From NCBI GenBank assembly GCA_028554795.2, contig CM068828.1:12048314-12112313 (forward strand): 64,000 nucleotides of DNA, given 5' to 3'. The notes under the pieces are model-generated. The model did not search any database and had not been told where the DNA came from. It was given only the letters and a program-made list of their open reading frames with translations. The translations under genes and the position numbers were made by a program. Each line of letters opens with the position of its first letter. Positions within the stretch are counted from its first letter, which is position 1. Shown here piece by piece: positions 15,374-47,372 of this stretch. Origin of the DNA: Sinohyriopsis cumingii. Lineage: Eukaryota; Mollusca; Bivalvia; Unionida; Unionidae.

Positions 15374-15753
15374 AGTAGTGAAGGGGGATCCTATAGGGTC
15401 TATGGGATTTATCATTAAAAATACCCTTGGGACAATATAGGGTCTATGTAAATTTAACATGGAGAAAAATCGTGGGACAATATAGGGTCTATGGGAATTT
15501 AACATGGCCAAAAATCGTGGGACAATATAGGGTCTATGGGAATTAACATGGCCAAAAACCCTTGGGACAATATAGGGTCTATGTAAATTTAACATGGCCA
15601 AAAAAACCCTGGGACTGTATAGGGTCTATGTAAAATTGAAACAGGGAGGGTCTCCATTTTAAAAAAAATAAAAAATAAAATAAAAAAAGGAGTAGGCAAT
15701 GGTAAGGCTATCTCTTTTCGAGATATATGGCTGGCCCTGAAAAGGGCCTTTGG
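15374..15753. repeat. Left terminal inverted repeat
   Basis: 380 bp, the inverse of 35,373-35,752, with about three mismatches by eye. It contains six subrepeats centred on TATAGGGTCTATG with a period near 46 bp (TGGGACAATATAGGGTCTAT, then AATTTAACATGG and AAAA), an A-rich tract, and at its inner edge a histone-type stem-loop read on the minus strand. Confidence 0.97.
15733..15748 (-). terminator. Histone-type 3' stem-loop, left TIR
   Basis: On the minus strand the sequence GGCCCTTTTCAGGGCC forms a 6-bp stem with a TTTC loop, followed by AGCCA and then the purine-rich box TCTCGAAAAGAGAT. It lies 22 bp after the stop codon of the minus-strand ORF 15,771-16,001. The layout matches the metazoan histone mRNA 3' processing signal. 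Confidence 0.75.
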
Positions 15754-15770
15754 TTTATGTTAATATGCCC

Positions 15771-16001
15771 TTAACATAAAGGGCATTTGCGACATCTTCT
15801 TGTCCTCAAACTTCGTCTTACAGCAGGGCCATACATCAGAGTTCTCTTGAGGCAACCTTGTCTCTCTATATAGACTCTTCTTATCCACAGGCTGCTGCTG
15901 GTCCTGTGGACAACGGTCCACTTGGATCGGACATACATGAGCATGTCCGTCCTGAACATCATTGTTGACACAAGGGTTGAAGATTCAACGTCTGTCCACA
16001 T
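15771..16001 (-). CDS. Small basic Arg/Cys protein, leftmost gene of the young Maverick
   Basis: A 76-residue ORF with no family I recognise. The N-terminal half is mixed and the C-terminal third is strongly basic (RRSLRTRRCRKCPLC), so nucleic-acid binding is plausible but only inferred. The ATG is about 45 bp downstream of a minus-strand TATA box (TATAAATA, 16,046-16,053), a good distance for a short leader. The stop codon is followed by the stem-loop in the left TIR. Its position between a TATA box and a 3' signal is the main reason to call it a gene. Confidence 0.55.
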   Translation of the reverse strand: MWTDVESSTLVSTMMFRTDMLMYVRSKWTVVHRTSSSLWIRRVYIERQGCLKRTLMYGPAVRRSLRTRRCRKCPLC

Positions 16002-16045
16002 GTTGAGGCTCCGACAATAGGTGAATCAATGCAGTGAACTGCGCT

Positions 16046-16173
16046 TATTTATAGGGACAGAAAGGATTGAAACGGATTGAGTTCATTCACCAATCCGAAC
16101 ACGCGTTACAGAATTCAGTCAGCCCGCATCCAATCTGAAGAGAGCAGTCTGTGACGTCACGTAGTCTATATAG
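16046..16173. promoter_or_regulatory. Divergent TATA promoters with a CRE-like site
   Basis: A minus-strand TATAAATA (16,046-16,053) drives the 76-aa gene. A plus-strand TATATAG (16,167-16,173) lies about 54 bp before the 194-aa gene, with an initiator-like TGCAGTCAAT near 16,191. Between them is a perfect TGACGTCA palindrome at 16,152-16,159, the consensus site of CREB/ATF bZIP factors. Confidence 0.7.
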
Positions 16174-16220
16174 ATTCGCTAGCGCTTGTGTGCAGTCAAT
16201 CTATGCGACAGTGATTCAAC

Positions 16221-16805
16221 ATGACGGGAACTCAGAAAACGATCCAATGGGGTGCACAAACAGGGGAGACCGCCCAAGGGAACCCGGACTTACTTTCAGA
16301 AGAGGTGAATTGGGATTTTGTGGATTTTCTCTCCTCGCAAGAATTTGTTCCGGAACCTTCGTTACCTTCTTCATTACCGCAAGTGGAAAATTTTAGACAG
16401 AGACAGAAAGAAGAATTGGAGAAATTTATACAACGACAAAAGGAAGCGGAACAGGCTTTTCTCCTACAGCAACAGCAACAAGAAGAAGAGGTAAGAAAAA
16501 AACAACTGCAACAACAGCAAGAAGAAGTAGCAGCAAAGAAACAAGAGGGTGAAAATCAAACGGTCACGGTACTGTTGGACATTTTAGCGGAGTTAAGAAG
16601 TCTGAAACAAATGTATCAGACTTCTTTATCACGACCGAAGAGAATACGACCTTCCCGAGCTAAACACGTCAACCCTGTGACTAAGCCTATCGTACCACCC
16701 TTAGTGATTTCAACCCAATCATTATCATCATCATCAACATTACGCAGTCCAGAAGTAGGCCTTGGCCGTGGCAAAGGCATAAGGCAGTTAAAGTTGATTG
16801 CTTAA
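16221..16805 (+). CDS. Gln-rich coiled-coil protein with histone-type 3' end
   Basis: 194 residues. An acidic N-terminus (residues 1-55, with EEVNWDFVDFLSSQEF) precedes a long Gln/Glu/Lys coiled coil (about 58-115), a short leucine-rich helix (LLDILAELRSLKQMY), and a basic, Ser/Pro-rich tail (PKRIRPSRAKH). I recognise no family. TATA, initiator and ATG are well spaced, and the stop is followed at 27 bp by a histone-type stem-loop. It shares the coiled-coil style and the 3' signal, but not the upstream box, with the three right-end genes. A structural or DNA-associated role is possible; no function is claimed. Confidence 0.8.
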   Translation: MTGTQKTIQWGAQTGETAQGNPDLLSEEVNWDFVDFLSSQEFVPEPSLPSSLPQVENFRQRQKEELEKFIQRQKEAEQAFLLQQQQQEEEVRKKQLQQQQEEVAAKKQEGENQTVTVLLDILAELRSLKQMYQTSLSRPKRIRPSRAKHVNPVTKPIVPPLVISTQSLSSSSTLRSPEVGLGRGKGIRQLKLIA

Positions 16806-16831
16806 ACTCACCCCTTCACCATGAAGAAAAA

Positions 16832-16869
16832 GGCCCTTTTCAGGGCCACCCACATTTCTCGAAAAGAAA
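16832..16869 (+). terminator. Histone-type 3' stem-loop plus downstream purine element
   Basis: GGCCCTTTTCAGGGCC (16,832-16,847) forms a perfect 6-bp stem with a TTTC loop. ACCCA follows immediately, and GAAAAGAAA starts 8 nt further on. The upstream flank is A-rich. All parts match the animal histone mRNA signal recognised by SLBP and U7 snRNP. An AATAAA further downstream (near 16,898) could act as an alternative. Confidence 0.85.
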
Positions 16870-17008
16870 TACAATTTCAATTTGCCAATAACTCAAAAAA
16901 ATAAACCCCACCCATTTTACCCTTATAGTACGTGTCTGTGTATGAGTGCGTGAGTGTAGCTTCTTATTTTAAAATCAAAACTCAAAGACACTTACCTTAT
17001 ATCATTAA

Positions 17009-17014
17009 TTTATT
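17009..17014 (-). terminator. Polyadenylation signal for the zinc-knuckle gene
   Basis: AATAAA on the minus strand, about 190 bp beyond the stop codon of the zinc-knuckle gene. It sits in AT-rich sequence that converges on the end of the 194-aa gene. Confidence 0.55.
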
Positions 17015-17201
17015 CTTTTCTCCATTTTTTACAATCCAATTCACAATTCACAACACAACACTTTAATTAAAAGTTCATTGACTTCTTCTTTCTCCTTGTT
17101 TAGTCTCTCTGTTTTTTGAATTTCTTCACCGTCTTTTCCTCATTTTCTTCCCTTCTTCTTTCCTTCTTCTCCTGTTTCTTTGCCTCTTGTAAATAGAATT
17201 G

Positions 17202-17573
17202 TCATTTTTCTTCCTCTTCTTCCTCTGAAGAATCCCTCTCTTCTTTCGAAGAATCCCTCTCTTCTTCTGAAGAATCCCTCTTTTCTTCTGACTCCTCTTG
17301 TTTCTTTTTTGGGCAATCTGGAGACCAATGTCCTTTTTCTTTACAATAATAACAGGTATCTTGACTTTTGTCTTTTTTAGTCCCTGTTTTTGTTCTTTTT
17401 TGACGGTCTGGACACTCTGAAAACCAATGCCCTTTCTTCTGACAGATATAGTAAGTATCTTGACTTTTATCTCTAAAGGAAGGAGAGTAGTCCGTAGGCT
17501 GGTCTGAAGAGAATTTTCTAATGACCCCTCGCAAAGCTCTGACGAAACGTTCCATCTGGTTAGTCTCTTCCAT
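17202..17573 (-). CDS. Zinc-knuckle (CCHC) protein with acidic tail
   Basis: The frame opens at 17,621, but a minus-strand TATA box (TATATAAAAGGG, 17,626-17,637) is too close to that ATG. The ATG at 17,573 fits better and gives 123 residues. One complete retroviral-type knuckle is present (CYYCKEKGHWSPDC, CX2CX4HX4C). An upstream near-copy (YYICQKKGHWFSEC) has lost its first cysteine. The C-terminus is a run of Glu/Ser repeats. Such knuckles bind single-stranded nucleic acid or RNA in Gag, CNBP and related proteins; the role here is inferred. It is transcribed divergently from the polymerase gene. An overlapping minus-strand frame (17,126-17,623) is a shadow. Confidence 0.75.
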   Translation of the reverse strand: MEETNQMERFVRALRGVIRKFSSDQPTDYSPSFRDKSQDTYYICQKKGHWFSECPDRQKRTKTGTKKDKSQDTCYYCKEKGHWSPDCPKKKQEESEEKRDSSEEERDSSKEERDSSEEEEEEK

Positions 17574-21802: not shown

Positions 21803-22546
21803 ATGAATACTTTGAAAGAGACATCGTTCCAGTTTGGGGATTGTAAAAAAGTTGTATCTTCCTCTAGTGTGACTAATACTGGATGGATAAGACCCAGGCA
21901 TTGCGACGGAAAATGTCCGGAAGGAAACTGCGATTGTCCATGTGGTTACCATTGTAATTGCGTAACGGAGTTTGCAGACGAGTGCGATTGTGAGCCTTGC
22001 GATGTGTACGATGCTGTACGTTGTGACCTGAGCGATGCCGTAAAGCATCATGGGAACTTTAGTGTCCCTACCCCTATCATGGAAAGGGATGCTGTGCGTG
22101 TCAAACCTGAGGGATGCGAAAGTGATGCCGCTCGTCCTCTTGGACATTTTACTGGGTTTCGTTTTAAAGGGGAATGTCCACCTTCACGTCTACCCCCTTA
22201 CGGATATCATCCAGCCCTGAGCAAACTCCTACCTATGTCACTTAACCCTCATCGAAACGAACCTGTGAAAGACGAATATTCGTTCCCTGTGCGTTTGTCG
22301 GAATACTGCGACTTTGAAAATCGTCTTCAATCGTTCAAAGGAAAATGGCCAAAGTATCTGGGAGGACCGACCCCCGAAGAATTAGCCAGAGCCGGATTTT
22401 TCTACTTGGGTGAAGGAGATAAAGTCAAGTGCTTCAGTTGCGGTGTGTCACTTCACCACTGGGAACCGCAAGATTCGGCCTACGTAGAGCATGCTCGATG
22501 GTCACCGAATTGTCATTACTTACCCTTAGTGGGACCGAGACATTGA
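21803..22546 (+). CDS. BIR-domain (IAP-like) protein
   Basis: 247 residues. The N-terminal half is unusual: a cluster of short Cys motifs (about 34-75, for example CDCPCGYHCNC) with no family I can name. The C-terminal part (about 172-241) is a single type II BIR domain, with the zinc ligands C210, C213, H230 and C237, the core GDKVKCFSCG and the usual W and P positions. BIR domains bind IAP-binding peptides in caspases or their regulators, and viral copies are generally taken to delay cell death. No RING finger follows, so it is not a full E3-type IAP. It opens the accessory cluster between the polymerase and the ATPase. Confidence 0.9.
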   Translation: MNTLKETSFQFGDCKKVVSSSSVTNTGWIRPRHCDGKCPEGNCDCPCGYHCNCVTEFADECDCEPCDVYDAVRCDLSDAVKHHGNFSVPTPIMERDAVRVKPEGCESDAARPLGHFTGFRFKGECPPSRLPPYGYHPALSKLLPMSLNPHRNEPVKDEYSFPVRLSEYCDFENRLQSFKGKWPKYLGGPTPEELARAGFFYLGEGDKVKCFSCGVSLHHWEPQDSAYVEHARWSPNCHYLPLVGPRH

Positions 22547-33222: not shown

Positions 33223-33251
33223 GGGGATGTTTTCCTTCACGTCCGCGCTTT
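33223..33251 (+). promoter_or_regulatory. Shared late-type upstream box, copy 1
   Basis: GGGGATGTTTTCCTTCACG followed by TCCGCGCTTT. An initiator-like TTCCAGTC comes at about 33,272 and the ATG at 33,314. The box recurs before the next two genes and, diverged, in the old element (42,886). Confidence 0.75.
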
Positions 33252-33313: not shown

Positions 33314-33664
33314 ATGTGCTCCAAACTAGCTAAGCTCAACGAAGCCTACGTGAATTTGCATAGGGTCAGACACAGTCTGATACCGAAGCCAGAAGAAATC
33401 GAAAATGTGAGAATGTTAAAAATCACTGAAGACCTGATAGAAGAGCTCTTCAGAGAAGAAATGAACAGGGAAAAAGAAGAATGGACAGAGAAGTACAGAC
33501 TTCAGAGACAGCAGCAACAGCAACAACAACAGCAACAACCTGAACCTGACAGAGGCTTTGTCGATTGCCGTATCGACACCAAAGAGTTCTTCTTTTCTTT
33601 CCGAAGAAGCAGACCTATCGCCAGAAAGTCTATCCTCAGAGGACATCGCATTCTTAGAAACTAA
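33314..33664 (+). CDS. Small coiled-coil protein, right-end gene 1
   Basis: 116 residues from the ATG at 33,314. N-terminal helices (LAKLNEAYVNLHRVRHSL) lead to a charged coiled coil and a polyglutamine run (about 69-78), then a basic C-terminus (SFRRSRPIARKSILRGHR). No family recognised. It shares its upstream box and histone-type 3' end with the two genes that follow, so the three look like an amplified expression cassette. A basic tail is compatible with nucleic-acid binding, but nothing more can be said. Confidence 0.75.
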   Translation: MCSKLAKLNEAYVNLHRVRHSLIPKPEEIENVRMLKITEDLIEELFREEMNREKEEWTEKYRLQRQQQQQQQQQQPEPDRGFVDCRIDTKEFFFSFRRSRPIARKSILRGHRILRN

Positions 33665-33693
33665 AAAAGAATACCATAGCAAACAAAAAAAAC

Positions 33694-33731
33694 AGCCCTT
33701 TTCAGGGCTACCCAATACTCTAGAAAAGAAA
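33694..33731 (+). terminator. Histone-type 3' stem-loop plus purine element
   Basis: AGCCCTTTTCAGGGCT (33,694-33,709) is a perfect 6-bp stem with TTTC loop. It is preceded by AAAAC and followed by ACCCA, then GAAAAGAAA at 33,723-33,731. An AATAAA at 33,774 could serve as a backup. Confidence 0.85.
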
Positions 33732-34074
33732 TAACTATTAATTTGCCAATGTGTGTAGGTAGAGTAGTGTGAAAATAAACACTAACTCTTTTAAAAAATG
33801 TGAGGGTATGTGTTGGTGTGTTTGAGTTAGTAAGAGCTCAAGTAAGTTGGTGGAGATAGTAGATTAAAATGATATCTTTTCTTAGTGTTTGAGGTGTATA
33901 TTTGGGGTTAGATTGGATTGATTTGCGTATGTGGATAGTCTATTGAAGTGATTTATAAAAAATTTTAAAATAGTGATGGGTAGCATAAAAAAGTGAGTGA
34001 GTGTTTCTTTTAGGTCCGCGCGTTGTTGTTTTTTTTTGGTCATGATCTAGGTAAGATGAATTTTATGTTATTAG
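33732..34074. other. Spacer between right-end genes 1 and 2
   Basis: Non-coding, T/G-rich on the plus strand. The part after the stem-loop (TTTGCCAATGTGTGTAGGTA, then GAGTAGTGTGAA) is nearly repeated after the next stem-loop. From about 34,013 it is also related to 34,832-34,885 (CATGATCTAGGTAAGATNAA, then TTATGTTATTAGGGGG). It therefore consists of duplicated cassette DNA. Confidence 0.7.
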
Positions 34075-34105
34075 GGGGATGTTTTCCTTCACGTCCGCGC
34101 TTTCA
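34075..34105 (+). promoter_or_regulatory. Shared late-type upstream box, copy 2
   Basis: GGGGATGTTTTCCTTCACG then TCCGCGCTTTCA, followed at once by a TATA-like AGTATAAATTG and, 23 bp on, an initiator-like GGCAGTCCAG. ATG at 34,166. Confidence 0.75.
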
Positions 34106-34165: not shown

Positions 34166-34504
34166 ATGAACACGAGACATGAGAAACTGTTGGAGCTTCA
34201 TGTGCATCTGGAATATGCCATGCGCATATTAAATGAACTGGCCGCGGAAGCCATTGTCGAGGAGGGAAGGATAAGAGAGGAGGAAAGAAGAAACAAAGAA
34301 GAAGAAGAAAGAAGATATAAAGAGGAAAGAAGAAACAAAGAAGAGGAGGAGGAAAAGGAGAGAAGAAATTTCAAAATCCCAGTTAGCGAAAATTGGGATT
34401 CTGAAGCGACATATCCTGCCTCTGCTCTCTCCCCCCAAAAGGTAAAAAGTAACTGGGGGATAAGATGTGTATGTGGCGCCAGGCCTGGAAGGTGCCACCA
34501 TTAA
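34166..34504 (+). CDS. Small coiled-coil protein, right-end gene 2
   Basis: 112 residues from the ATG at 34,166. N-terminal helix (LELHVHLEYAMRILNELAAE), a Glu/Arg/Lys coiled coil made of RRNKEEEE-type repeats, then a Pro/Ser region and a Cys-rich end (RCVCGARPGRCHH). No family recognised. A homologue in the old element (44,049) keeps the N-terminal helix and the DNA up to the 3' stem-loop. Confidence 0.75.
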   Translation: MNTRHEKLLELHVHLEYAMRILNELAAEAIVEEGRIREEERRNKEEEERRYKEERRNKEEEEEKERRNFKIPVSENWDSEATYPASALSPQKVKSNWGIRCVCGARPGRCHH

Positions 34505-34533
34505 CCAGGTGTCCATGAAGTTCCAAACAAAAC

Positions 34534-34572
34534 AGCCCTTTTCAGGGCTACCCAATACTCTAGAAAAGAAAT
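34534..34572 (+). terminator. Histone-type 3' stem-loop plus purine element
   Basis: The same 16-base hairpin as at 33,694, followed by ACCCA and GAAAAGAAA. The 100 bp around it are almost identical to the first right-end gene's 3' region, showing cassette duplication or gene conversion. Confidence 0.85.
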
Positions 34573-34815
34573 AACGATCGATTTGCCAATGTGTGTAGGT
34601 AGAGTAGTGTGAATATAAACACTAACTCTTTATTAATAGTGGAAGTGTATGTGATTGTGTGTTTGTGTTTGTAAATGTTGAAGTAAGTTTGTGTGTTTGT
34701 GTTTGTAAATGATGAAGTAAGTTTGTGTGAATAGTAGATTATGGGTTTATTTATTGATTCTTAGCGTATGTAGAGAGTATAGTTGAGGTTTATATTATAT
34801 GAAATGAGAAAGTAA

Positions 34816-34914
34816 GGGGATGTTTTCCTTCACGTACGCGCGATGTTAGTCATAATCTAGGTAAGATCAAATTTATGTTATTAGGGGGATGTTTTCCTTC
34901 ACGTCCGCGCTTTC
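34816..34914 (+). promoter_or_regulatory. Shared late-type upstream box, copies 3 and 4
   Basis: Two boxes in tandem: 34,816-34,841 (GGGGATGTTTTCCTTCACG then TACGCGC) and 34,885-34,914 (the same box then TCCGCGCTTTCA). The second is followed by a TATA-like ACTATAAGAACC and the gene at 34,972. The first is not followed by a gene and looks like a leftover of duplication. Confidence 0.7.
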
Positions 34915-35358: not shown

Positions 35359-35372
35359 AAGAAGAAGAAAAC

Positions 35373-35752
35373 CCAAAGGCCCTTTTCAGGGCCAGCCATA
35401 TATCTCGAAAAGAGATAGCCTTACCATTGCCTACCCCTTTTTTTATTTTATTTTTTATTTTTTTTAAAATAGAGACCCTCCCTGTTTCAATTTTACATAG
35501 ACCCTATACAGTCCCAGGGTTTTTTTGGCCATGTTAAATTTACATAGACCCTATATTGTCCCAAGGGTTTTTGGCCATGTTAATTCCCATAGACCCTATA
35601 TTGTCCCACGATTTTTGGCCATGTTAAATTCCCATAGACCCTATATTGTCCCACGATTTTTCTCCATGTTAAATTTACATAGACCCTATATTGTCCCAAG
35701 GGTGTTTTTAATGATAAATCCCATAGACCCTATAGGATCCCCCTTCACTACT
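35373..35752. repeat. Right terminal inverted repeat
   Basis: Inverse of the left TIR over all 380 bp, with the same six TATAGGGTCTATG-type subrepeats. It ends CTTCACTACT and is followed by the ATTGAC target duplication. Because the hairpin sits at the inner edge, both element ends carry the same outward-facing 3' signal. Confidence 0.97.
35378..35393 (+). terminator. Histone-type 3' stem-loop, right TIR
   Basis: GGCCCTTTTCAGGGCC, 19 bp after the stop of right-end gene 3. It is followed by AGCCA and then ATCTCGAAAAGAGAT, in which the purine box is itself part of a small palindrome. Confidence 0.8.
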
Positions 35753-35758
35753 ATTGAC
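35753..35758. repeat. Target-site duplication, right (ATTGAC)
   Basis: Second copy of the 6-bp duplication flanking the young Maverick. Confidence 0.95.
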
Positions 35759-36015
35759 TCTCAATTATCGCATCAGTCGAGTAGTGAACTTTGGCGTGCT
35801 CAGAGAAGTTTTGCAGTCTGGACAGGATGGAAATTTTAATGTGACCACCGACGATAAGAAAGCACAAGATTGTACGTTTAGCTGTACACCAAATCGTCAG
35901 TCGACCTTTGGAAAAAGTGTATCAAATCGTGTACCAGAAGCGAGTGCGGCTTCCCATCCGCTTCACTTTGCCGTACGGTCACGTCGATATTGGTCAGCAT
36001 GTAAAAAGGGACAAC
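35753..36015 (+). pseudogene. Old Maverick polymerase B, right part
   Basis: Resumes the polymerase coding sequence at the target duplication (TLNYRISRVVNFGVLREVLQ), in line with 21,499-21,745 of the intact gene. A frameshift occurs near 35,860 and the gene's end is degenerate. With 13,510-15,373 it forms one gene split by the young element. Confidence 0.9.
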
Positions 36016-36062
36016 TTCCACGACCGATAGTTCATTGTAACTACAAAGACCAAGCGAGGAAG

Positions 36063-36401
36063 ATGAATCTTTTCACACAGCAAGTACCGAGCGAGAGAAA
36101 ACTCGAGTGCGATGATGTGCTTAACGAGCATATCACCAATGCAGTACCATATCTTAGTTGTTTATTTACTAACGTCATGGAAAAGTATGTGCAACCAGTG
36201 GGACTTCCAGACTACAAGACTTTACCATATGAACACGGGATAACACCTATTATAAATAGGGACGACTTCCAAGAAGGACACTTCATTGCAAGGAGAAACG
36301 TCGAGGAAGATGTTGCACTCTACACAGATGAAAAAAAGAGAAGGAACACACATCATTGTCCTCTTTCACCACCATACCGTGACAGCAAAGTGCGTCAGTA
36401 G
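36063..36401 (+). CDS. Unknown ORF in the old Maverick, after the polymerase
   Basis: 112 residues in an ORF that starts where the BIR gene lies in the young element, with related upstream DNA (CGATAGTTCATTG...AAGACCAAGCGA). I see no BIR motif or other domain; the sequence includes CDDVLNEHITNAVPYLSC and RDDFQEGHFIARRNVEEDVA. It may be another accessory gene of the old element or a decayed one. Confidence 0.4.
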   Translation: MNLFTQQVPSERKLECDDVLNEHITNAVPYLSCLFTNVMEKYVQPVGLPDYKTLPYEHGITPIINRDDFQEGHFIARRNVEEDVALYTDEKKRRNTHHCPLSPPYRDSKVRQ

Positions 36402-36427
36402 ACCTAAAGGAGTATTTTAGCATCCAA

Positions 36428-36800
36428 ATGACTCATACAGCGACTTCGAGAGAAATTAGGACGACAACTTACACCTACACAGTGAAATTTAAAGACTTTG
36501 CGTCTGACGTTGCAGCCGAGGAAGCAGCAGGTTTCATCACGGACTTATTTGACTCACTGTTATTGGAACTCAAACATCATTGTCAAGTCAAAGATCAAGG
36601 TCGTTTGAGGCTATTTATGTATCAAGATAATTTGAACTCTCCTGTATGTCTCGTGTTTAGTACACCTGCAGAATTAACTTCTTCCAAACTATTGAAGACG
36701 TGCATACAATGAGAGAAAAGTTTGACATCATCGATGGAAAAGTGACCATTCATATGGCATACGTTTTACCTCCATGGGAAGAAGACAATAACCGCCATTG
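36428..36800 (+). pseudogene. Piece homologous to the polymerase N-terminal domain
   Basis: Residues 1-94 of this frame match about residues 75-165 of the intact polymerase (TYTVKFKDF, EAAGFITDLFDSLL, VFSTPAELTSSKLL). Homology continues in a shifted frame to about 36,800. In the young element this domain sits at the start of the polymerase; here it comes after the polymerase C-terminus. Either the old element was rearranged or the domain existed as a separate gene. Confidence 0.75.
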
Positions 36801-37320
36801 ATCTGTTTATCGATAAGTGCACCTAGCATGATGGATATGCCCGCAGATGTACAGATGAAAGGGAGTACGTCATGGGAAACATCTATGCTGAGACACAAAT
36901 GGTAGTTGACCAAATCTAAACGACGTGAGTGACTGATAAAAAGAAAAGCAGGAACTTTGTCCTATTTGATTGTTTGTTTCTTGTTTTAGCTTTTGGTCAA
37001 AAATGGACATTAATTGTAGTATGTCACTCTTTTATGAATGGCATATACGTTGTATATGTTTTTTTTTGTGAAGGCATGAACTTTAATTTTTACAAGTAGT
37101 TTTCTCGAACCAAGAAATAGATAACTTGTGAATGTGTTTGTTGCATGTCGAAATTTGTATGTATTAAATGGATAGTGCTTAGGCCATAAAACCCATGTAC
37201 ATGTATATATTTGAATAAATGTTTTGTACCCATACAGAAGACTTTTCTTTATGGAGTCTCTATTCTGTATGTGAGTCTCTCTTTGGGCAGAGCGGGACAT
37301 ATAACTTTATATAACGCCTG
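36801..37320. other. No gene recognised
   Basis: AT-rich, non-coding DNA between the polymerase-like piece and the capsid fragment. The ATPase-to-minor-capsid segment of the old element would be expected here and is gone. Confidence 0.5.
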
Positions 37321-38107
37321 GCGGACACTGATGAATAGTTTGCATTTAGACATGTGGTTGCAAGAGAAGTATTTGCTGAACGGAGTGGATGTCCGCTTGA
37401 GACTAAATCGTAGCAGTACCGCTTTCCATTTGATAGCTGAGTCTGCCTATAACAAAACAGTCATTCAAGAAGCCAGACTCTACGTACGACGTGTAGAAGT
37501 GTAACCTAAAGTGGGAAACGACATCAGTCACACTTCGAGCAGAACGACCGCCAAGTATCCGATACGACGCGTGGAAGTGAAAACTTTCACTATTCCCGCT
37601 GGACATCAATCCATGATCGAAGATCATCTGTTCCAAGGACAGTTACCCAAACGTGTGATCATTGGTATCGTGAAAAATACAGCCTTCATTGGAGCCTTCG
37701 AGGAAAATCCTTTTGAGTTTCAGCACTAAAACGCGCCCAAGATCGAAGTCAGTCGAGATGGCAAAACTTTGTGTACCATTCCTTAGAACCCTGACTTTAG
37801 TGACGGGAAGAATAATTACCTGAGGTCGTACTTGGCCCTGTGCGAAACCACGGGGCAGCTAGGAACCAACACCAGTCACGGTATTACGTACGAGGATTAT
37901 GCAGGAGGCTACGCTTTGTGGGCCTTTGATTTCACTCCAGACCAAGGCAGCGACGAGGAACATTTCCACCCTAAAAAAATCCGGCCAGATTCGTGTGGAA
38001 CTTCAGTTTGCAAAGCCAATACCCGTAAACAACACGGTGAATGTCATCTGTATGCAGAATTCGACAATAAAAATCAACAGTTTGAGAGAAGTCATTCTTG
38101 ACTATTA
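37321..38107 (+). pseudogene. Old Maverick major capsid protein, 3' fragment
   Basis: Homologous to residues from about 183 to the end of the intact capsid protein (HLDMWLQEKYLLNGVDVRLR through REVILDY). It carries in-frame stops near 37,502, 37,728 and 37,784 and a frameshift near 37,975. About 180 N-terminal codons are absent. Confidence 0.92.
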
Positions 38108-38113
38108 ATCTTA

Positions 38114-39055
38114 TGTCACTTGTTTATGCTGGAATAAACAGTAACACAAGAAAGTGTGAAAACAACAAGTTTTGAAAAATACAATAATTTATTTCCCTAG
38201 AACAATTCTGTAAAGATAAAACAAAAATATGAACATACGGTTTTATAGAATCAAATCCACAAAAAAAATGATCCAAAAATAATCCGATAATAAAACTTTA
38301 GTAGTCCTAATAACAAGATGTTCTACTGATTTCACGTTCGAATCCCGACGAATAATCCAAGATGGAAGACGATGACGTATGCTACAATCTGTATTGCTGA
38401 AGTCTACAGTTCCTTGTAGAAATATGAATTATCACTCCGGTTTCTGATAGCTGCATAAATTTTATAAAAAATACTGTCTTTGTTCCACAATATTACATGA
38501 GCACACGTATTTTCCAGAAAAAAATAACAGAATTAATTCTTTTGATTCCATGTAATCTGAAATAACTCCAAACCAAGTAATTTGAAATAAATCCAAACAG
38601 CACAACATACAACAAACAGTTTAACGGCCCAACTTCTACTGATTAATTCTCCAAAACATGGGTTATATGGGCTTTCTAAAACGTAAACAAGGGTCACGTG
38701 ATCATCTTCTAGAAGTTCATTTTTACTCTAAGAAATAAATATAAAATTGTTTATATCTTAAAGACAAGGTCCCATCATGACCTTGAAAACAACTAATCAT
38801 TTTAAAATAAAATAGAACTTGTTTACGAAGGTTGCTACAAATTCTGAAACAAGGTCAGGATTTAGATCAACACCTGGAGTTTATAAACTAACAGTCAAGG
38901 TCAAACTATTTTCTAAAAAAAGGTATCATCTCTAGTGAATAAATTTGCATTACAATATCATGTAATGAAAAATAAACAAATTTAAAACTGACAAACAATT
39001 AAATTGAAATAAATATATATTAAATCAGATATAATTAAATCAATTATACATAACA
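38114..39055 (-). repeat. LTR (3' LTR in element orientation)
   Basis: Direct repeat of 40,613-41,586 with scattered small indels and substitutions. Shared landmarks are AATAAACAGTAACACAAGAAAG, in two parts at the start, and the terminal AT-rich block ending ATACATAACA. Confidence 0.85.
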
Positions 39056-39177
39056 CTTCCTCCCATAAAGAAAAAGAAAGATTTATACATGAAGCTTTCT
39101 TTTTACCACAGACTAATTATACATGAGGTTTAAAAGAACTCATATAAATTACACAGTGTACATGAAATAATATATTG

Positions 39178-40199
39178 TTATACACGGGAAAGTGCGTCTG
39201 CTATTAAATTATATTTTCCCTCGATGTGCCTGATGTCAAGATTATGTTCATGTAACAACAAGCTCCACCTTAGTAGTCTTTGATTTCGATTTTTCATCTT
39301 GCCGATGAAAGTAATGGGGTTGTGGTCACTAAATACAATAATCAAAGAAGGAGCTGAACTACAAAATGTTGTAATGCCAATAGCAAAGCCAAACATTCCT
39401 TCTCGACTGTTGAATAATTCCTTTGGTGCTTATTCAATTTCTTGGAAAAATAGCACACTGGATGATCAATACCACTTTCATCTTCTTGAATCAAAACTGC
39501 TCTAAGCCCAACATCACTTGCATCAACAGACAGTTTAAAAGATTGGCTGAAATTTGGAGCTGTAAGAACTGGCGCGCTTTTAAGTATGGCTTTCAACTTG
39601 TCAAAAGCCTCCTGACATTTTTCAGTCCAAAGAAACTTGTTTTTCTTATTCAATAAATTTGTCAGCGGTTCAGCAATTATAGAAAAATAAGAACAAAATT
39701 TTCGATGGTATCCGGCCATGCCTAAAAATCGCATCAGTTTCTTTTTATTAAAAGGCACGGGAATTTCAGAGATAGCCTTGGCCTTAGCATCTATAGGTTT
39801 AACTTGTCCATGTCCCACGATGTGTCCTAGAAATGTTACACTAGCACGGCAGAACTCACTTTTAGATAAATTAATTGTCAAGCATGCATCTGTGAGTCTG
39901 TCAAATAATTTCCGAATTGTTGCTAAATGTTCTTTCCAGATATCGTTGTAGATGATGACATCATCGATGTAAGCATCACAATTGCCTAGACCAGAGGTAA
40001 TCATATTCATGAGACGTTTAAATGTACCTGGCGACCCTTTCATCCCAAACGGCATTACTTTATATTGGTAACGTCCATCTGGAGTCACGAATGCTGACAT
40101 TTCCTTTTGCATTTGCATTACTTCTATCTCTTTTTGTAACTGTATTTGTTCTTTTTGTAACTGCATTTGTCTTTCTTTCCCTCTTTCTTCCAATTGCAT
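39178..40199 (-). pseudogene. Gypsy reverse transcriptase-RNase H remnant
   Basis: The minus strand encodes RT parts: VTPDGRYQYKVMPFGMKGSP, the catalytic YIDDVIIY box, FLGHIVG, and an RNase H-like region (LSVDASDVGLRAVLIQE). A frameshift near 39,350 precedes the end of RNase H (DIRHIEGKYNLIADALSRV). The first RT domains, the protease and the integrase are missing, and the N-terminus is joined to a Gag-like Gln/Lys coil, so the element cannot move on its own. Confidence 0.9.
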
Positions 40200-40612
40200 T
40201 TGTTTTTCTTTCTCTCTTTCCTTTCTCTCTCTCTCTCCTCTTTCTCAAATTGTAACTGCATTTGTCTTTCTCTCTCCTCACTCTCTTTTTGCAACTTCAA
40301 TCGTTTTACTTCCATCTCTTTCTGAACTGCATTCGTCTTACCTCCATCTCTCTTTCCTTTTGTATCTTTTCTATCTGAAACTGAACCTGTCTTATCTCTA
40401 ATTCCAACTTTTTTAGCTGTACTTCCATTTTCAAAATTTCCAACCACTCCCGAGTAGAATTTAAGAAAAGTTATCTACCTTTGATGATATTTTAGAAAAA
40501 GCTTGCCGATTTCACTAAAATTTCAAAAACTAGGGGAATTAAAAAAAAAAGTTTTCTGAAATATTCTATCCAAAATTCAATAATATACTTAGGACGAGCG
40601 CGCAATTTCTTA

Positions 40613-41586
40613 TGTCACTTATTTATGCTCGAATAAACAGTAACACAAGAAAGAGTGAAAACAACAAGCTTTGAAAAATACAATAAATTATTTCCCTGGA
40701 AAAATTCTGTAAAAATGAAAACAAAATATGAACTTACGGTTTTATAGAATAAAATCCCCAAAAAATGATCCAAAAATAATCCGAGATTACAATTTTAGTA
40801 GTCCTAATAACAAATTGTTCTACTGATTTCACGTTCGAATCCCGACGAAGAATCCAAGATGGAAGACGATGATATATGCTACAATCTGTAGTGTTGAAGT
40901 CTACAGTTCATTGTAGAAATGAGAACTGTCACTCCGGTTTCTGATAGCTAAATAAATTTTTATAAAAACAACTGTCCTTGTTCCACAATATTACATGAGC
41001 ACATGTATTTTCCAGAAAAATAACAGAATTAATCCATTTGAATCCAAATAATCTGAAATAACTCCAAACAGCACAACATACAACGAACAGTTTAACGGCT
41101 CAACTTCTACTGATTAATTCTCCAAAACATGGGTTATATGGGCTTTCTAAAACGTAAACAAGGGTCATGTGATCATCTTCTAGAAGTTTATAGAATCAAA
41201 TACCTGTTATAGGTCACGTACACCCAGTGTGACCCTGACGAAAACCAATTATTTTTACCCTAAGAAATTTTTAACAAAATTGTTTATATCTTAAAGGCAA
41301 GGTCCCATCATGACCTTGGAAACAACCAATCATTTTAAAATAAAATGGAACTTGTTTACGAAGGTTACTACAAATTCTGAAACAAGGTCAGTATTTAGAT
41401 CAACACCTGGTGTTTATAAACTAACAGTCAAGTTCAAACTATTTTCTAAAAATATATCATCTCTAGTGAATAAATTTTCATTACAATATCATATAATGAA
41501 AAATAAAAATATTTAAAACTGACAGACAATTAAATTGAAATAAATATATATTAAATCAGATATAATTAAATCAAATATACATAACA
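40613..41586 (-). repeat. LTR (5' LTR in element orientation)
   Basis: About 974 bp, the partner of 38,114-39,055. Divergence between the two by small indels shows the insertion is not recent. Confidence 0.85.
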
Positions 41587-41596
41587 ATTAGAAATT

Positions 41597-42099
41597 ATGG
41601 AAGCCTGTAATCCTTCTTTGAATAGTCGAGAATCTATGGAAATGGAATTGGAGGATACCGTGGAAGTAGAACCCAAAGACAAAGACGAAGAGGACATAGT
41701 CATGACGTCCAGATGACCAGAACAAGAACAACACTTAGTCTCCTGTTTTTCCAAACACCTAGCAGAAAAATTACGGAATTGATCAAGAAAGATTGGTATG
41801 GGTGTCGAAACGATCATCCCAGTCAAATTCAACACGTTAAATGTCTGATGCTGAGTCAAGAGGAAAAATTGGACGAGTATCTGGACGAAGCTTGGAGTCA
41901 CATCTTAGAAGAAGCCGTGTTGCATCAGTGGTATAAAGACCTGCGTGGTCATTCCTCTCCTCCCCTGATTGCTCTAGAGATCCATCGCATCGAAGCTCTC
42001 TTGGCTCAGAGTGCGGAGACGAAGCGAAGAAACGGTTACTTGTCAGACATTTTTAAGCAAACAGTTAGGATTGAATTGATGGCTTATCATTATCTGTGA
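41597..42099 (+). pseudogene. Old homologue of the 161-aa conserved gene
   Basis: Matches the intact gene at 31,904 from its ATG (MEACNPSLNSRESMEMELED) to the end. A TGA near 41,715 replaces a Trp codon, and a frameshift near 41,765 follows. It keeps its place before the protease. Confidence 0.9.
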
Positions 42100-42134
42100 A
42101 GAAAAAAAAACAGAAAAGCAAAACAACACAAAAA

Positions 42135-42692
42135 ATGGATACCTGGGAACTTTATTACCTTTTGAACCACAGTTCGTACACTGCTTTTTGGAATCCTGTC
42201 GTGTGTGCTAAAGATGAACTGCATCATCGCAAACCTCAAGACCATCAAGCTTATGTCTTCAACACGGACGACAGTCAGCTCTCAGGAACCCACTGGGTAT
42301 CCGTCTACTTTCCCCGTGATGGTTGTGTAGAGTATTTTGATTCGTATGGACTGCCATCTTTGGAAGACGACATCATCGACTTTATGAGAAGAAATGCCCA
42401 GACGACACGATTCAATAATGTGAAAGTACAAAGCACAGATTCCATTGTGTGTGGACAATATTGTGTATATTTTCTTCATCAACACAGTCTTGGATATTCT
42501 TTAGAACATTTTGTGACTTATTTTGATCGTCACTCTTCTAGAAACGATGACAAAGTAGATCGATGGTTTTGTGACCATTATGGTTATCTTTTGTCTTTAG
42601 CTAGGAAATGTATTGTACATCAATGGCCCAATGACTTCCATCAGTGGAAGTCTAGCTTAACTTCACAACGTTGTCAACCTTATCAAAAATAG
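42135..42692 (+). CDS. Adenain-type protease of the old element, ORF intact
   Basis: 185 residues with no stop or frameshift, although its neighbours are pseudogenes. The catalytic elements GTHWVSVYF, EYFDSYG and VCGQYCVYFL are all present. Protein identity with the protease at 32,419 is high by eye. AATAAA lies 63 bp beyond the stop. Whether it is still expressed or merely spared by chance cannot be told from sequence alone. Confidence 0.85.
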   Translation: MDTWELYYLLNHSSYTAFWNPVVCAKDELHHRKPQDHQAYVFNTDDSQLSGTHWVSVYFPRDGCVEYFDSYGLPSLEDDIIDFMRRNAQTTRFNNVKVQSTDSIVCGQYCVYFLHQHSLGYSLEHFVTYFDRHSSRNDDKVDRWFCDHYGYLLSLARKCIVHQWPNDFHQWKSSLTSQRCQPYQK

Positions 42693-42754
42693 TTATTTGA
42701 AAAATGTTTGTTTGAAAAAATGTTTTATGGTTAATTGTGGTTATTTGTTGTTTG

Positions 42755-42760
42755 AATAAA
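42755..42760 (+). terminator. Polyadenylation signal of the old protease gene
   Basis: AATAAA in the same position as 33,090 in the young element. Confidence 0.65.
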
Positions 42761-42885
42761 AAATTGTTTTGAAAAAAATGCGCCTGTCGTTTGTTTTCAA
42801 TTTTTATCATTATACATGCTCTTTGACTTCTCTCTATCCCTCTCACTCAAATCAACAATCATAGCGTTCCGACTCTAAACATTAT

Positions 42886-42913
42886 AGGGATGTTTTCTAT
42901 CGCGTCCGCTCTT
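42886..42913 (+). promoter_or_regulatory. Diverged late-type upstream box, old element
   Basis: AGGGATGTTTTCTATCGCG then TCCGCTC, followed by a TATA-like CAATATAAAG and an initiator-like CTCCAGTCTG. It corresponds to the box at 33,223, but the gene that should follow has been displaced by a LINE fragment. Confidence 0.7.
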
Positions 42914-42954
42914 GAACAATATAAAGCAGGACAGTCTCCAGTCTGACATTCATT

Positions 42955-43300
42955 TACAACATATATTTAATGAGTGCCACGAATATCATGCACAACGGGA
43001 TATCTTCAAGACCAATCAAAAACACATAGGATCCCTAACAACCTACCCGGAATTTCTGTCGTCCAGTAACCCTAACATCAATTCAACGTATGATAAATAA
43101 TATCCTACTTTTCCAGAAATAAACTGGCAAACAAATAAAATTTAACCCTTAATGGTCATCCCCTCACTCCACTTAGAACTATAAACTATCAAATGATACA
43201 AATAAAAACCCTATGAAAATAAAGTAGAACTTAATCCCAACTTTATATATAAAAAACAAATAAAAAAAATAAAAATAATAATTTCATTATTATTCTTTCG
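42955..43300 (+). mobile_element. LINE 3' end 1 (reverse transcriptase C-terminus and UTR)
   Basis: The frame 42,912-43,100 ends IFNECHEYHAQRDIF, IGSLTTYPEFL and NPNINSTYDK. The second LINE piece (45,320) has the same C-terminal pattern preceded by CYHCRVPEDLTHLFNTC, the CxxC...HxxxxC tail of non-LTR reverse transcriptases. An AT-rich untranslated part with an A-rich end follows. Confidence 0.6.
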
Positions 43301-44025
43301 TTCTTTTCACTATAACTAACAGCACATATACAATCTTTCAAAATTCAGCAAGACGCTTTTTATTCTAGAAATTGGGATCTAAAGTATTTCTGGATGTCAC
43401 AAACGGCTCACCTCCTATTTATACCCCTACCGTCCTACCCTCAACTGGATATTCAATCATACTATGCTAGCACGTATTAAACCTATTAGCCCGATTAACG
43501 TGCCTTCACGATACTTGGGTAGCGCTGTAATTGGGGTGTAATCCCCCAATAAGCGAAGCAACTGATACAGACTACTAGCGATACAACTAAGTAGCACTAC
43601 CAAATAGATTAGGCAGATCCACCTTTCTACAAACAGCACAAATAATGATTTTAAAAATTAATAAATGCGGCAAGACGACACCATTTACTATTCGGAAAGT
43701 TGGGAGCAAAAATAAATGATCCCGGATGCAAGGCACCTCCCCTCCGCTCGGATCGACATCCCTTGCCTCTGCTGGACATGTATCATAGGAATGAGTGCGT
43801 GCGGTCTGCCGCCATTCACCAAGAGCCCCATGAGACAAAAATGTCTCGAAAATGGACTAATCAAATAACACACAGTGTGTGCAGTATAGCGTTGGGGAAC
43901 GTGATACTATTCCGCCCCCCTCGAAAAAATTAACCAGCCCTCCGTGAGGGTATTAACCGGTCGCACATGCCCAATGGGCGAAAGCGACCTAAATTGAAAG
44001 ATTGATTGATTGATTGTCAGTCTGG
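43301..44025. mobile_element. Probable second LINE-like 3' end with (GATT)n tail
   Basis: Non-coding block ending CCCAATGGGCGAAAGCGACC, then TAAATTGAAA and a GATTGATTGATTGATTG tail at about 44,003-44,018. A short tandem tail of this type is typical of RTE-like or SINE-like elements. Old Maverick DNA resumes directly after it (CAGTCTGGCTACCC). Confidence 0.5.
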
Positions 44026-44048
44026 CTACCCAGCGTTCACTCCTTAAT

Positions 44049-44905
44049 ATGAGCAGAATTGCAAAATTGATAGAATTTCAGATGCACACGGATTATACCA
44101 GCCGGCTCCTGGTTGAGCTGGCCATGGAGGCAATACGGGAGGAAGCCAGGCATGAGGAAGAGGAGAAGAGAAAGAAGATAGAGAAGGAAGAAAGGATCTT
44201 GCCTCATCAGATGATTAGGTCGGTGTGCGAGGTGAAGCCTCTGGTAACACCACTACTACCACCAACACAGCCACTACCTCATCCACAACCACTACCAACA
44301 GCACACACCGCTCCGGTGGCCTAGTGGCTAGAGCGTCCGCCTTGGAAGCGGGAGGTCGTGGGTTCGAACCCAGGCCGAGTCATACCAAAGACTTACAAAA
44401 ATGGTACTAACAGCTGCCTCGCTAGGCGCTCAGCACTAAGAGGTTGGTGTTAGGACTGGTCGGACTGGTGTAAGGATAATGCGACTGGGTGAGACTTCAT
44501 GTTATATGTCTGCTGCATGATGCCCCAGTGCTAGACATCACTATAAACTGCCACACTGCAGACAACGTAGCGATATGACTGAAAAATTGTTAAAAGCTAC
44601 GTTAAAAATCCTAATCACACACACACTACCACCAGCACAGAGACGCGTGGTCCCCCAAACGGAAAACTGGGAGGAGGAGTTGCGTCAGCAGGAGGTAAAT
44701 GGACCACATCATCCACGGGTGTGGAATAGGAGAATCAGGCAATAAGAAGTCTTCAGAATCCCACAAGCGGAAGATTGGGGTGCTGAATCAATCAAGCAGC
44801 CTTTGCGCTCCCAAGAACAAAACTGAACTGGGAGCAGGACTGGAGTGGACGTTGCGTGTGTGGGGCCAGACCCGGAAGGTACACACATTAAGAGGTGCAT
44901 CTGAA
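44049..44905 (+). pseudogene. Old homologue of right-end gene 2, split by a SINE
   Basis: The ATG at 44,049 opens MSRIAKLIEFQMHTDYTSRL and a charged coil homologous to the gene at 34,166. The coding sequence runs into a SINE at 44,306-44,624. Beyond it, DNA to 44,905 matches the 3' part of the gene (GTGTGGGGCCAGACCCGGAA, then GGT) and leads to a diverged stem-loop at 44,917. Confidence 0.8.
44306..44624 (+). mobile_element. tRNA-derived SINE, family A copy 3
   Basis: tRNA-like head (GTGGCCTAGTGGCTAGAGCG, GGTTCGAACCC), the shared body, and a CA tail (ATCACACACAC). A 15-bp target duplication (ACTACCAACAGCACA at 44,291 and ACTACCACCAGCACA at 44,625) has one mismatch. It inserted into the coding sequence of the old coiled-coil gene. 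Confidence 0.92.
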
Positions 44906-44916
44906 GTTCAAAATAC

Positions 44917-44960
44917 AGTCCTTTTCAGGATTAACCAAATCCCTCGAAAAGAGACTATTC
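44917..44960 (+). terminator. Diverged histone-type stem-loop, old element
   Basis: AGTCCTTTTCAGGATT (44,917-44,932) still pairs over 6 bp with one G-U pair and keeps the TTTC loop. AACCA and a CTCGAAAAGAGAC purine box follow at the expected spacing. Confidence 0.75.
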
Positions 44961-45029
44961 AAGTTGCCAATTTGTGTGAATGTGGAGTAGTGTGACTATA
45001 AACACTCACTCCTTTGCTGATGTGATTGT

Positions 45030-45295
45030 GTGTGTGTTTGAGTGTGTGTGTATTTGTATGAGTGCGTGTACGTTGTGTGAAAAGTAGAGTGTGTATTTGT
45101 ATGGGTGCGAGTACGTTGTGTGTATGTGTGTTTGTATGAGTTCGCGTACGTTTTTGTGGATAGTTGATATTGTGTTTGTTTTTTCTCCTTCCCGTGTGTG
45201 GATAGTAGATTTGGGGTTTGTTTTTCTCCTTCCCGTGTGTGAATAGTAGATTTGGGGTTGGTTTTCTCCTTCCCGTGTGTGGATAGTATATAACT
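45030..45295. repeat. TG-rich tandem repeats, old element
   Basis: A GTGTATTTGTATGNGTGCG-like repeat is followed by three to four units of TTTCTCCTTCCCGTGTGTGG plus ATAGTAGATTTGGGGTT (period about 37-50 bp). The unit's TTTTCTCCTTCCCGTGTG part loosely recalls the upstream box of the right-end genes, so these may be expanded, diverged promoter boxes. Confidence 0.55.
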
Positions 45296-45319
45296 AGAAT
45301 CTACACCGAAAAAAACTAA

Positions 45320-46920
45320 ATTGGCCAGCAGCTTTGGGCAGTACATAGGACCTCAACCCCACAACATAAATTGCTACCACTGCCGGGTTCCAGAAGACCT
45401 AACACATCTATTCAACACCTGCCACAAACTAAAGAAAGAAAGAACCAAACTAAAAATGGAGCAAAATAAGATTGGATCCCTGGAAACATACCCAGAGTTT
45501 TTAATGAATAACAACGCCAACCTTAATCTAACATATAAATATAATTAACTTTGTACATGAATCTGGGCTACAAAATAAAATATAAAACTTAAATACCATA
45601 ACTAAACTATCCGAAATACAATTGGTCATTTCACCACCGGACGCCTCTCCTGGTGTAACTGGGTGGGGAATTGGGTGTGGGGGGTAGCATACGGTTTACC
45701 ACCAGGTCCGGGTGTGTACCGTTAAGCGCGGACTGATGCTGCATCTGCTCCTATCACACACTTCAGCACCCTGGGTCATCCGGATGTATGACCCGCTAAA
45801 CAATGCAATAGGCCTTGCCAAATGTATTTGACCTGACTTTAAAATAACACCTGATTTATAACGCAACTAGGAACATAATTAGGGAGCAAAAAGAAGAAGA
45901 AAAAAACATTGCTTTTTATTTCTGTAATAAATTTTTTGTTTACACTTACTTCTCCCTTACACCATCTAAGTAACCCCTCATCTACCATCTATCTCTAAAG
46001 TCTACCTGACAGCCCCGCATGTACGTAACACAATTAATACCTCTGAGAAATTAACACTCTAGCCGAAGGTGGCAGTCATATCTATAGCACGAGCATTTTT
46101 CGGTCCCTAAAATTAGACCATATAATGTGGTCCAACACCTAGGACCATGAGGGCCCGCCGCACAAAGTGGCAAACCAATAAATAACTTTATGAAAGGAAG
46201 ACCTCAAATTAACTCCTATAAGGTGATCTAAAACACCAAAGACCATCTGGCCCAGCAGCACAAGGCCGCAAATAAAACCACGGTAATTTAGACACGTAGG
46301 ACCCTAAAAACTTAATCCAACATATAAGGTGGTCTCAAAAGTCCAAGACCATCAGGACCAGCCACACAAGGTGGCAAACTTTGCTAAAAACTGTCACCTA
46401 AGGTATCTCTCCTTAGCAAAACTCTAACTTAAAACAGTACAGAGTTTTTCATTCCAAATTGTGTAACACGACAATTTAAACCCAATACATTGGAGTCTAG
46501 GAGCACCGACCTGTGACCTTAAATCCGCCCTTTCCACCCACTCCTCCCTTTCCACAGCCGGACATAAAAATCAATCAGCGTGCAGTGCACGCCCTTAGTG
46601 CTACTGAAAATTCAGTACAATACATATGAGTGTGTGATGGGTCCATTCCCACTCATAAATACCCAGTGCAGCTAAGTAGTACCGACAGAAAAAAATTGAG
46701 TGTGTGATGGGTCTATTCCCACTCGCCTTCAAGCCCTCCATTCAGACAGTTAGGACCTCTATTAAGTCCACTGCCTGACGGCTTCAATTAAAAATTGCTC
46801 CTTGAGCACATAAATACCTGGCGGAAGTGGCTCTAATTCCTTCCCCTATGAGCAATTAAATAGCCTACCTTGTAGGCACAAATCAGAGGTACATGCTCAG
46901 AACAGCGCAAGCCTCTATAA
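45320..46920 (+). mobile_element. LINE 3' end 2 (reverse transcriptase C-terminus and long UTR)
   Basis: The frame at 45,321-45,548 encodes the C-terminal zinc motif CYHCRVPEDLTHLFNTCHKL and ends KIGSLETYPEFLMNNNANLN. It is followed by about 1.4 kb of non-coding DNA holding three diverged 95-110-bp repeats (about 46,105-46,390; TATAANGTGGTC, AGGACCATCAGGNCC, CACAAGGTGGCAAA) and a duplicated GAGTGTGTGATGGGTC motif at 46,627 and 46,697. The outer end is set by where Maverick homology resumes. Confidence 0.6.
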
Positions 46921-46959
46921 TCCAACATAGATTCGCGTTATTCTACACAGAATATTCAG

Positions 46960-47338
46960 ATGGTTTCTAATACAATTGAAAAAATGAAGACGTTGCAGGT
47001 AGTCGTGGACAATTTGGGGATAATAGAAGAGATGCTGGTCAAACTGGATGAGGATTACTATTCTTACAGTCCCCATAGAGTCAAGATGGAAATAAAAAAT
47101 TGAGAAAGACTAAGGAAAGACTAAGGGAAGCGATGAAACAAGAAAAAGAGGAGAAGGAGGATGAAGAGGATAGAAGAAGAATGAGAGCACTGAATGAAAA
47201 AATAGAAAAGAAGATGAGAATAAGAAGAGGAACAAAGAGGAGGAGAAGAAGGAGAAACAGGAGGAGGAAAAGAATGAGAAGAAGACAAAAAATGTAGGAC
47301 AGAAAATAAGAAGCTGGTGCAGAAAAAGAAGGAATTAG
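46960..47338 (+). pseudogene. Old homologue of right-end gene 3
   Basis: Matches the gene at 34,972: TLQVVVDNLGIIEEMLVKL and YYSYSPHRVKMEIKN are conserved, then a TGA at 47,101-47,103 and a frameshift lead into the charged coil. The ORF-like DNA ends at about 47,338 before the 3' stem-loop. Confidence 0.88.
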
Positions 47339-47356
47339 AAAATAGAAGAAAACAAA

Positions 47357-47372
47357 AGCCCTTCTCAGGGCC
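47357..47372 (+). terminator. Histone-type stem-loop, right end of old element
   Basis: AGCCCTTCTCAGGGCC: five or six paired bases with a TCTC loop, which also fits the UYUN loop rule. ACTCA and a degraded CCCCGTAAAGATAT follow. Same position as the TIR-edge hairpin at 35,378. Confidence 0.7.

Follow-up and report, generated by a model that had tools for sequence, protein, structure and literature searches.

Histone-type 3′ ends on the terminal genes of a Maverick/Polinton element in the bivalve Sinohyriopsis cumingii

We analyzed a 64,000-nucleotide (nt) stretch of the 2.9-Gb assembly of the bivalve Sinohyriopsis cumingii (contig CM068828.1, positions 12,048,314 to 12,112,313; hereafter the window), which contains a 20-kb Maverick/Polinton, a virus-like DNA element, at 15374-35752, nested inside the polymerase gene of an older, decayed Maverick. 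The terminal genes of the young element carry a near-copy of the 3′-end signal of the host histone genes and probably use the host pathway in which SLBP and the U7 small nuclear ribonucleoprotein (snRNP) form histone mRNA ends. On balance, we favor the broader interpretation that a Maverick lineage took over this host pathway, so that its terminal genes would be expressed without poly(A) tails and restricted to S phase, and spread to very high copy number. In animal histone mRNAs, SLBP binds the stem-loop and the U7 snRNP pairs with a downstream purine box, and the transcript is cleaved 4-5 nt past the stem, is not polyadenylated, and is present mainly in S phase; replication-dependent histone genes are the classic source of animal mRNAs that lack poly(A).

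Histone-type hairpins end the outermost genes

A preliminary description of this DNA had reported seven hairpins with the full layout of the animal histone signal. A covariance scan of the whole window with Rfam 15 (cmscan), in which the histone stem-loop family RF00032 has a gathering score of 34 bits, matched six of the seven, three of them above the gathering score. Genes are named below by their first coordinate and hairpins by stem position.

15708..15753, minus strand (stem 15748-15733): histone-type 3′ end after open reading frame (ORF) 15771-16001, in the left terminal inverted repeat (TIR); RF00032 35.6 bits
16827..16871, plus strand: histone-type 3′ end of the 16221 gene; RF00032 41.2 bits, E 9.6e-09
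33689..33734, plus strand: histone-type 3′ end of the 33314 gene; RF00032 31.0 bits
34529..34574, plus strand: histone-type 3′ end of the 34166 gene; RF00032 31.0 bits
35373..35418, plus strand: histone-type 3′ end of the 34972 gene, in the right TIR; RF00032 35.6 bits
44912..44957, plus strand: homologue of 33694/34534 in the decayed old element, a histone-type 3′ end with the stem kept by a G-U and a two-sided change
47352..47397, plus strand: homologue of 35378 in the old element, a histone-type 3′ end lacking the outer pair; RF00032 28.6 bits

The 44917 site was absent from the RF00032 matches at E ≤ 10. All seven sites are real, but independent hairpins are fewer than had been assumed: 15733 (minus strand) and 35378 (plus strand) are one sequence present twice because both lie in TIRs, 33694 and 34534 belong to recent duplicates (33684-33791 and 34524-34631, 95% identical), and 47357 is short by one pair. 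The further claim that pairing is kept in the old copy holds for 44917, which has six pairs, one of them G-U, and differs from its homologue by a C-G to U-A change on both sides of the stem, but not for 47357, in which the outer pair has become A.C and five pairs remain.

A full-layout pattern (6-bp stem, TYTC loop, CCA within 6 nt, and GAAAAGA), composed post hoc with the sites already known, occurred six times in the window (47357 fails) vs. zero times in 200 first-order Markov simulations of 128 kb, in which the stem and loop part alone was expected 0.64 times. A looser pattern allowing two stem mismatches was not significant (15 matches in the window vs. 9.6 expected, 7 of 100 shuffles as high). 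For the five genes of the young element that end in a hairpin, the stem lies 26, 29, 29, 19, and 22 nt past the stop codon, 22 nt being the distance for ORF 15771-16001, and GAAAAG starts 13 nt past the stem in all five. The purine box is followed by a third conserved block, TTTGCCAAT or a variant of it (16881..16889, plus strand, for the 16221 gene), which to our knowledge is not part of the animal histone signal.

The genes that carry these hairpins are the outermost ones of the element, namely one on the minus strand and the 16221 gene at the left end, and a trio at the right end:

15771..16001, minus strand: 76-amino-acid (aa) basic ORF; tblastn relatives with 53-87% identity at loci L013, L018, L024, and L026
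16221..16805, plus strand: 194-aa coiled-coil gene bearing a basic patch (PKRxRPSRAK); 20 protein-database homologues and at least 150 genomic copies
33314..33664, plus strand: 116-aa terminal small gene; copy at L016 98% identical
34166..34504, plus strand: 112-aa terminal small gene; relatives at L016, L013, and L025
34972..35358, plus strand: 128-aa terminal charged gene; ORF with one database match

The hairpins had been described as tied to coiled-coil or basic small genes only. Within the window they follow only the terminal small genes, and neither RF00032 nor R1, a covariance model that we built from the seven window sites only, matched among the central genes. No Pfam family matched the four plus-strand hairpin genes at E ≤ 0.01, and by this measure they do not encode histones. 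The sole database match of the 34972 protein was from Sinanodonta woodiana (86% identity). In its structure model, the 16221 protein forms essentially a single long helix (predicted local distance difference test, pLDDT, 68), and a viral fold search returned nothing useful (best E 2.9). Among 19 of its 20 homologues that were aligned (P0140 was left out), P0132 reads beyond the usual end in a frame that matches the hairpin, purine box, and TTGCCAATTT, with one residue implying that the top stem pair is lost.

The signal resembles the histone ends of the host

Searching the assembly for histone H4 gave 114 matches, many in tandem units of ~8.3 kb. One host unit (L050) encodes H4, H2B, H2A, H1, and H3 on one strand, each with an RF00032 match above the cut-off. 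Host stems are GGCCCU/AGGGCC, or GGUCCU/AGGACC in H1, and start 27-38 nt past the stop codon, with GAAAAG 13-14 nt past the stem in all five genes and a purine box that reads CUAGAAAAGA in four genes and CCCGAAAAGG in H2A. A purine-rich downstream element at the host spacing was found at five of five window gene ends. Look-alikes of the third block occur in host H2A (TTTTGCCA), H3 (TGCCAT), H1 (GGCCAT), and H4 (TTTGTCAT), with none in H2B. R1 recovered all five host histone ends in L050 at 36.8-53.4 bits and nothing else at E ≤ 1; its matches in the window are no test because the model contains the window sites.

These comparisons uphold the assignment of the signal to the animal histone type, as stem, purine box, and spacing match the host's own histone 3′ ends. 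Judged by its letters, the element signal resembles that of the host histone genes closely in what it contains and in the order and spacing of its parts, and given this likeness, capture from a histone gene would be the simplest origin. Compared with the animal histone mRNA 3′ end in general (RF00032 plus downstream element), the element shares the 6-bp stem, the UUUC-type loop, the A-rich 5′ flank, the ACCCA-like 3′ flank, and GAAAAG 13-14 nt past the stem; its letters are nearly equal to those of the host's five genes, and it lies 19-29 nt past the stop codon as opposed to 27-38 nt in the host. It differs in sitting on non-histone genes of a virus-like element, in the A-U outer pair of some stems, and in the duplication of the TIR copy at both element ends. 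Primers from a study of a further bivalve, Lucina pectinata, include the complement of AACGGCCCTTTTT (PMC6210712); taking those letters for a stem, the GGCCC stem is probably used there as well.

The presence of one hairpin within each TIR would also fit a DNA-level feature of the element ends, acting as an origin, in terminal recognition, or in packaging, which resembles the histone signal by chance. However, the other hairpins are internal, each in gene orientation and 26-29 nt past a stop codon, and they match the host histone genes in the purine box and in its spacing, such that we consider a DNA-level feature extremely unlikely.

Most hairpins in related elements are kept

We applied R1 to a blind sample of 20 stretches of 10 kb from ten contigs, each sampled at the same two set positions. 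Eight matches of at least 32 bits fell in three of the 20 stretches, with the next best at 17.7 bits, and Maverick genes were seen in six. Where Maverick ends were expected beside L004, L005, and L018, two R1 matches were found at each, four of the six with intact stems; at L004 and L005, the hairpin was absent from the first stretch and present in the stretch at the expected end. Ten of the 14 non-window matches keep all six pairs, counting G-U. RF00032 alone recovered these same ten hairpins over the seven sampled loci (10 matches at E ≤ 0.1, 6 above the gathering score).

Matches follow relatives of the same genes wherever the gene is recognizable. Both left-end genes at L018 have an intact hairpin at 60 and 66% identity to those of the window. 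At L005/L024, where polymerase pieces are 44-70% identical, the relative of the 16221 gene retains six pairs, of which two are wobbles; the hairpin of the minus-strand ORF's relative has lost three pairs. The stop codon of the L016 copy of the 34972 gene lies 28 nt before the stem. The signal is present in several lineages of the element. Conserved hairpins with compensatory changes had been proposed as a check in related elements; most hairpins are kept in the related elements of this genome, with the compensatory changes suggestive only.

The 16221 family shows a very large recent expansion, with at least 150 copies at 95-100% identity among 28,047 first-look candidates. An internal stop is listed for four of 150 copies, a proportion that is not representative of copy integrity because these were the 150 best-scoring of the 28,047.

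We assessed constraint on the 3′ ends of 20 copies of the 16221 gene, hand-picked across the list of the 150 best-scoring. The 16-nt stem-loop was exact in 19, and the 20th has a C-to-U change that keeps a wobble pair. Fewer columns varied in the signal block than in its flanks (5 of 59 vs. 24 of 89), and gapped columns were confined to the flanks (0 of 59 vs. 17 of 89). Variation was low from the stem through TTTGCCAAT, which was itself nearly invariant, and higher past it, with the purine box about as constant as the stem.

Poly(A) signals do not track the hairpins gene by gene

We searched for AATAAA/ATTAAA within 600 nt past each stop codon. Such a hexamer lies at 95 nt in the 16221 gene, at 110 nt in 33314, and at 456 nt in 34166; AATAAA follows at 110 nt in the L016 copies of the latter two, and neither the 34972 gene nor its L016 copy has either hexamer in this range. 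Among the other plus-strand ORFs, 5 of 17 have a poly(A) signal, including two block-final ORFs (24105 at 152 nt and the protease at 111 nt). The preliminary description had contrasted hairpin-bearing genes with accessory and capsid-protease units ending in AATAAA, a contrast that persists at the ends of those two blocks and breaks down gene by gene. A hexamer past the hairpin was found in 6 of the 20 copies of the 16221 3′ end (160 nt of sequence), and because some copies have a downstream AATAAA, a polyadenylated form may also be made. Host H4 itself has AATAAA 65 and 120 nt past its stop codon, so a downstream hexamer is no argument against histone-type processing.

Some host histone variants have both a hairpin and downstream polyadenylation, and the element transcripts could likewise be dual-ended, with the hairpin a real SLBP site acting in translation or stability and most mRNAs polyadenylated downstream. 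The hexamers at 95 and 110 nt in the 16221 and 33314 genes, and at 110 nt in the L016 copies, would agree with this. It does not account for the 34972 gene and its L016 copy, which lack a hexamer, or for the retention of the hairpin in 20 of 20 copies of the 16221 end compared to the hexamer in 6 of 20, and host H4 has downstream hexamers itself. The purine box, which is needed for cleavage and not for translation, is also about as constant as the stem. Overall, we regard dual-ended transcripts as unlikely.

A proposed route through the host histone pathway

Under processing by the host SLBP/U7 pathway, SLBP would bind the element stem-loop in the nucleus of S-phase cells, the U7 snRNP would pair with the element purine box, and the histone cleavage machinery would cut past the ACCCA-like flank. 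The resulting mRNAs would be non-polyadenylated, made and kept mainly during DNA replication, and their timing would coincide with the element copying its own DNA; the products would be coiled-coil or basic proteins, perhaps needed in step with element DNA. Each TIR carries a hairpin at its inner edge, so that a gene at either element end would receive this ending. The mRNA class that the preliminary description had proposed along these lines draws support from the likeness, position, conservation, and constraint of the signal; protein binding, cleavage, the absence of poly(A), and coupling to S phase we infer.

Several observations weigh against processing by this pathway. We found no convincing U7 gene in the host with the Rfam U7 family (RF00066) and two patterns: the best RF00066 match reached 29.3 bits, which is below the cut-off, and would pair weakly with the element boxes; the first pattern gave no match, and the looser one gave ten (three in the backward control), none with a convincing 3′ hairpin. 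AATAAA lies 95-110 nt past the stop codons of the 16221 and 33314 genes. Four of the 14 non-window matches have broken stems, in keeping with old copies. Between young and old homologues in the window, hairpins were only somewhat better kept (13 of 16 and 14 of 16 positions) than their surroundings (50-74%). The Fisher test on variable columns (p = 0.006) overstates independence because the 20 copies are related. Covariation, assessed on 19 of 21 sites (18 distinct rows; the other two sites had identical sequence across the 46 nt compared), was likewise suggestive only: 90.7% of cells were paired, two pairs had two-sided changes, and the covariation score and paired cells exceeded all 500 shuffles, but the two-sided pair count was reached by 98 and the pair-type count by 486 of the 500, and these counts are, according to the covariation tool, the safer measures for related rows.

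That covariation is not clear by the safer measures would also be expected if a fragment of a histone 3′ untranslated region (UTR) had been copied into an ancestral element and carried unused, and the close likeness to the host histone ends makes capture a likely origin. Passive carriage is nevertheless difficult to reconcile with the intact hairpins at L018, whose two left-end hairpin proteins are 60-66% identical to those of the window, or with the constraint on the block relative to its flanks in the 20 copies, and we find it very improbable. Both passive capture and a DNA-level signal are therefore disfavored.

Relation to known elements and wider meaning

As in known Maverick/Polinton elements, the young element has a polymerase, integrase core, chromodomain, ATPase, TIRs, and a capsid-type protein, to which it adds histone-type 3′ ends on its terminal genes. 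The preliminary description knew of no such ends in Mavericks, and this agrees with our search of the open-license PMC literature, in which we found no description of them; subscription papers and preprints were outside the search. A genome scan of polinton-like viruses (PLVs) and virophages, which are related protist viruses, lists six histone 3′UTR stem-loops (PMC12220804). The section that lists them gives a bare count, undiscussed and without gene context, purine box, or host comparison. We found no relatives in IMG/VR by major capsid protein (MCP), MCP alignment, 16221-protein alignment, or PolB.

If the proposed processing holds, it would represent a new means by which a DNA element couples its gene expression to host S phase, and sequencing of poly(A)-selected RNA could miss such transcripts. 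It would also provide a natural setting in which to test how much of the histone signal is enough on genes other than those of histones.

Organization of the nested elements

The gene set of the young element comprises a type B polymerase (PF03175), a BIR protein, a Pox_A32-like packaging-type ATPase, an RVE integrase core (PF00665), a chromodomain (PF00385), and a capsid-type protein. Polymerase (pPolB, presumably protein-primed), RVE integrase, packaging ATPase, capsid gene, and TIRs together identify it as a Maverick/Polinton. We label the capsid-type protein as such from homologues named F54H12.2-like; it matched no Pfam family. It has 1050 database relatives, and among the 120 listed, the animal-named ones are from bivalves and one is from a bacterial metagenome-assembled genome (MAG). 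The BIR (inhibitor of apoptosis) domain gene lies at 21803-22546. The terminal repeats are 388 nt long:

15374..15761, no strand: left TIR of the young Maverick; 98% complementary to 35365-35752
35365..35752, no strand: right TIR, hairpin at its inner edge

Matches to the polymerase gene of the old element flank the young one at 13512-15373 and 35755-36072, consistent with its having been split by the insertion. Parts of the older Maverick occupy 13512-15373 and 35755-47400. L016 is a second case of a young element adjoining an older one.

A 28-bp promoter-like motif, GGGATGTTTTCCTTCACGTCCGCGCTTT, is exact before all three right-end hairpin genes:

33224..33251, plus strand: promoter-like motif before the 33314 gene; exact repeat
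34076..34103, plus strand: promoter-like motif before the 34166 gene; exact repeat
34886..34913, plus strand: promoter-like motif before the 34972 gene; exact repeat

Weaker matches to this motif occur at 34817 and 42887, with a five-mismatch relic in the old element. Two CCAAT boxes, TGACGTCA, and TATATA occur in the divergent promoter region of the left gene pair.

The MAG relative of the capsid-type protein is encoded on an 8.4-kb contig assigned to Breoghania sp., and this contig is probably animal DNA in the MAG bin. Neither the contig (E ≤ 1) nor that assembly (150 of 354 candidates scored) gave an RF00032 match. Of two further stem-loop patterns, one gave 0 matches and the other a single one, at L003, which was rejected as a chance occurrence: an ORF of 784 aa encloses it, and it agrees with RF00032 in the stem-loop part only (21.3 bits).

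Within the old Maverick, ORF 39342-40199 (minus strand) resembles what we take to be a reverse transcriptase/RNase H fragment of a retroelement. A tRNA-like match at 44310-44382 (plus strand, 33.3 bits) lies within a 320-bp repeat that has a 90% identical inverted copy at 10971-11288 and is possibly a tRNA-derived short interspersed nuclear element (SINE). A minisatellite at 59316-60967 contains overlapping tandem-repeat ORFs on the minus strand, with MHTVTSLSKECILSHHSAKNAYCHITQQR-like repeats.

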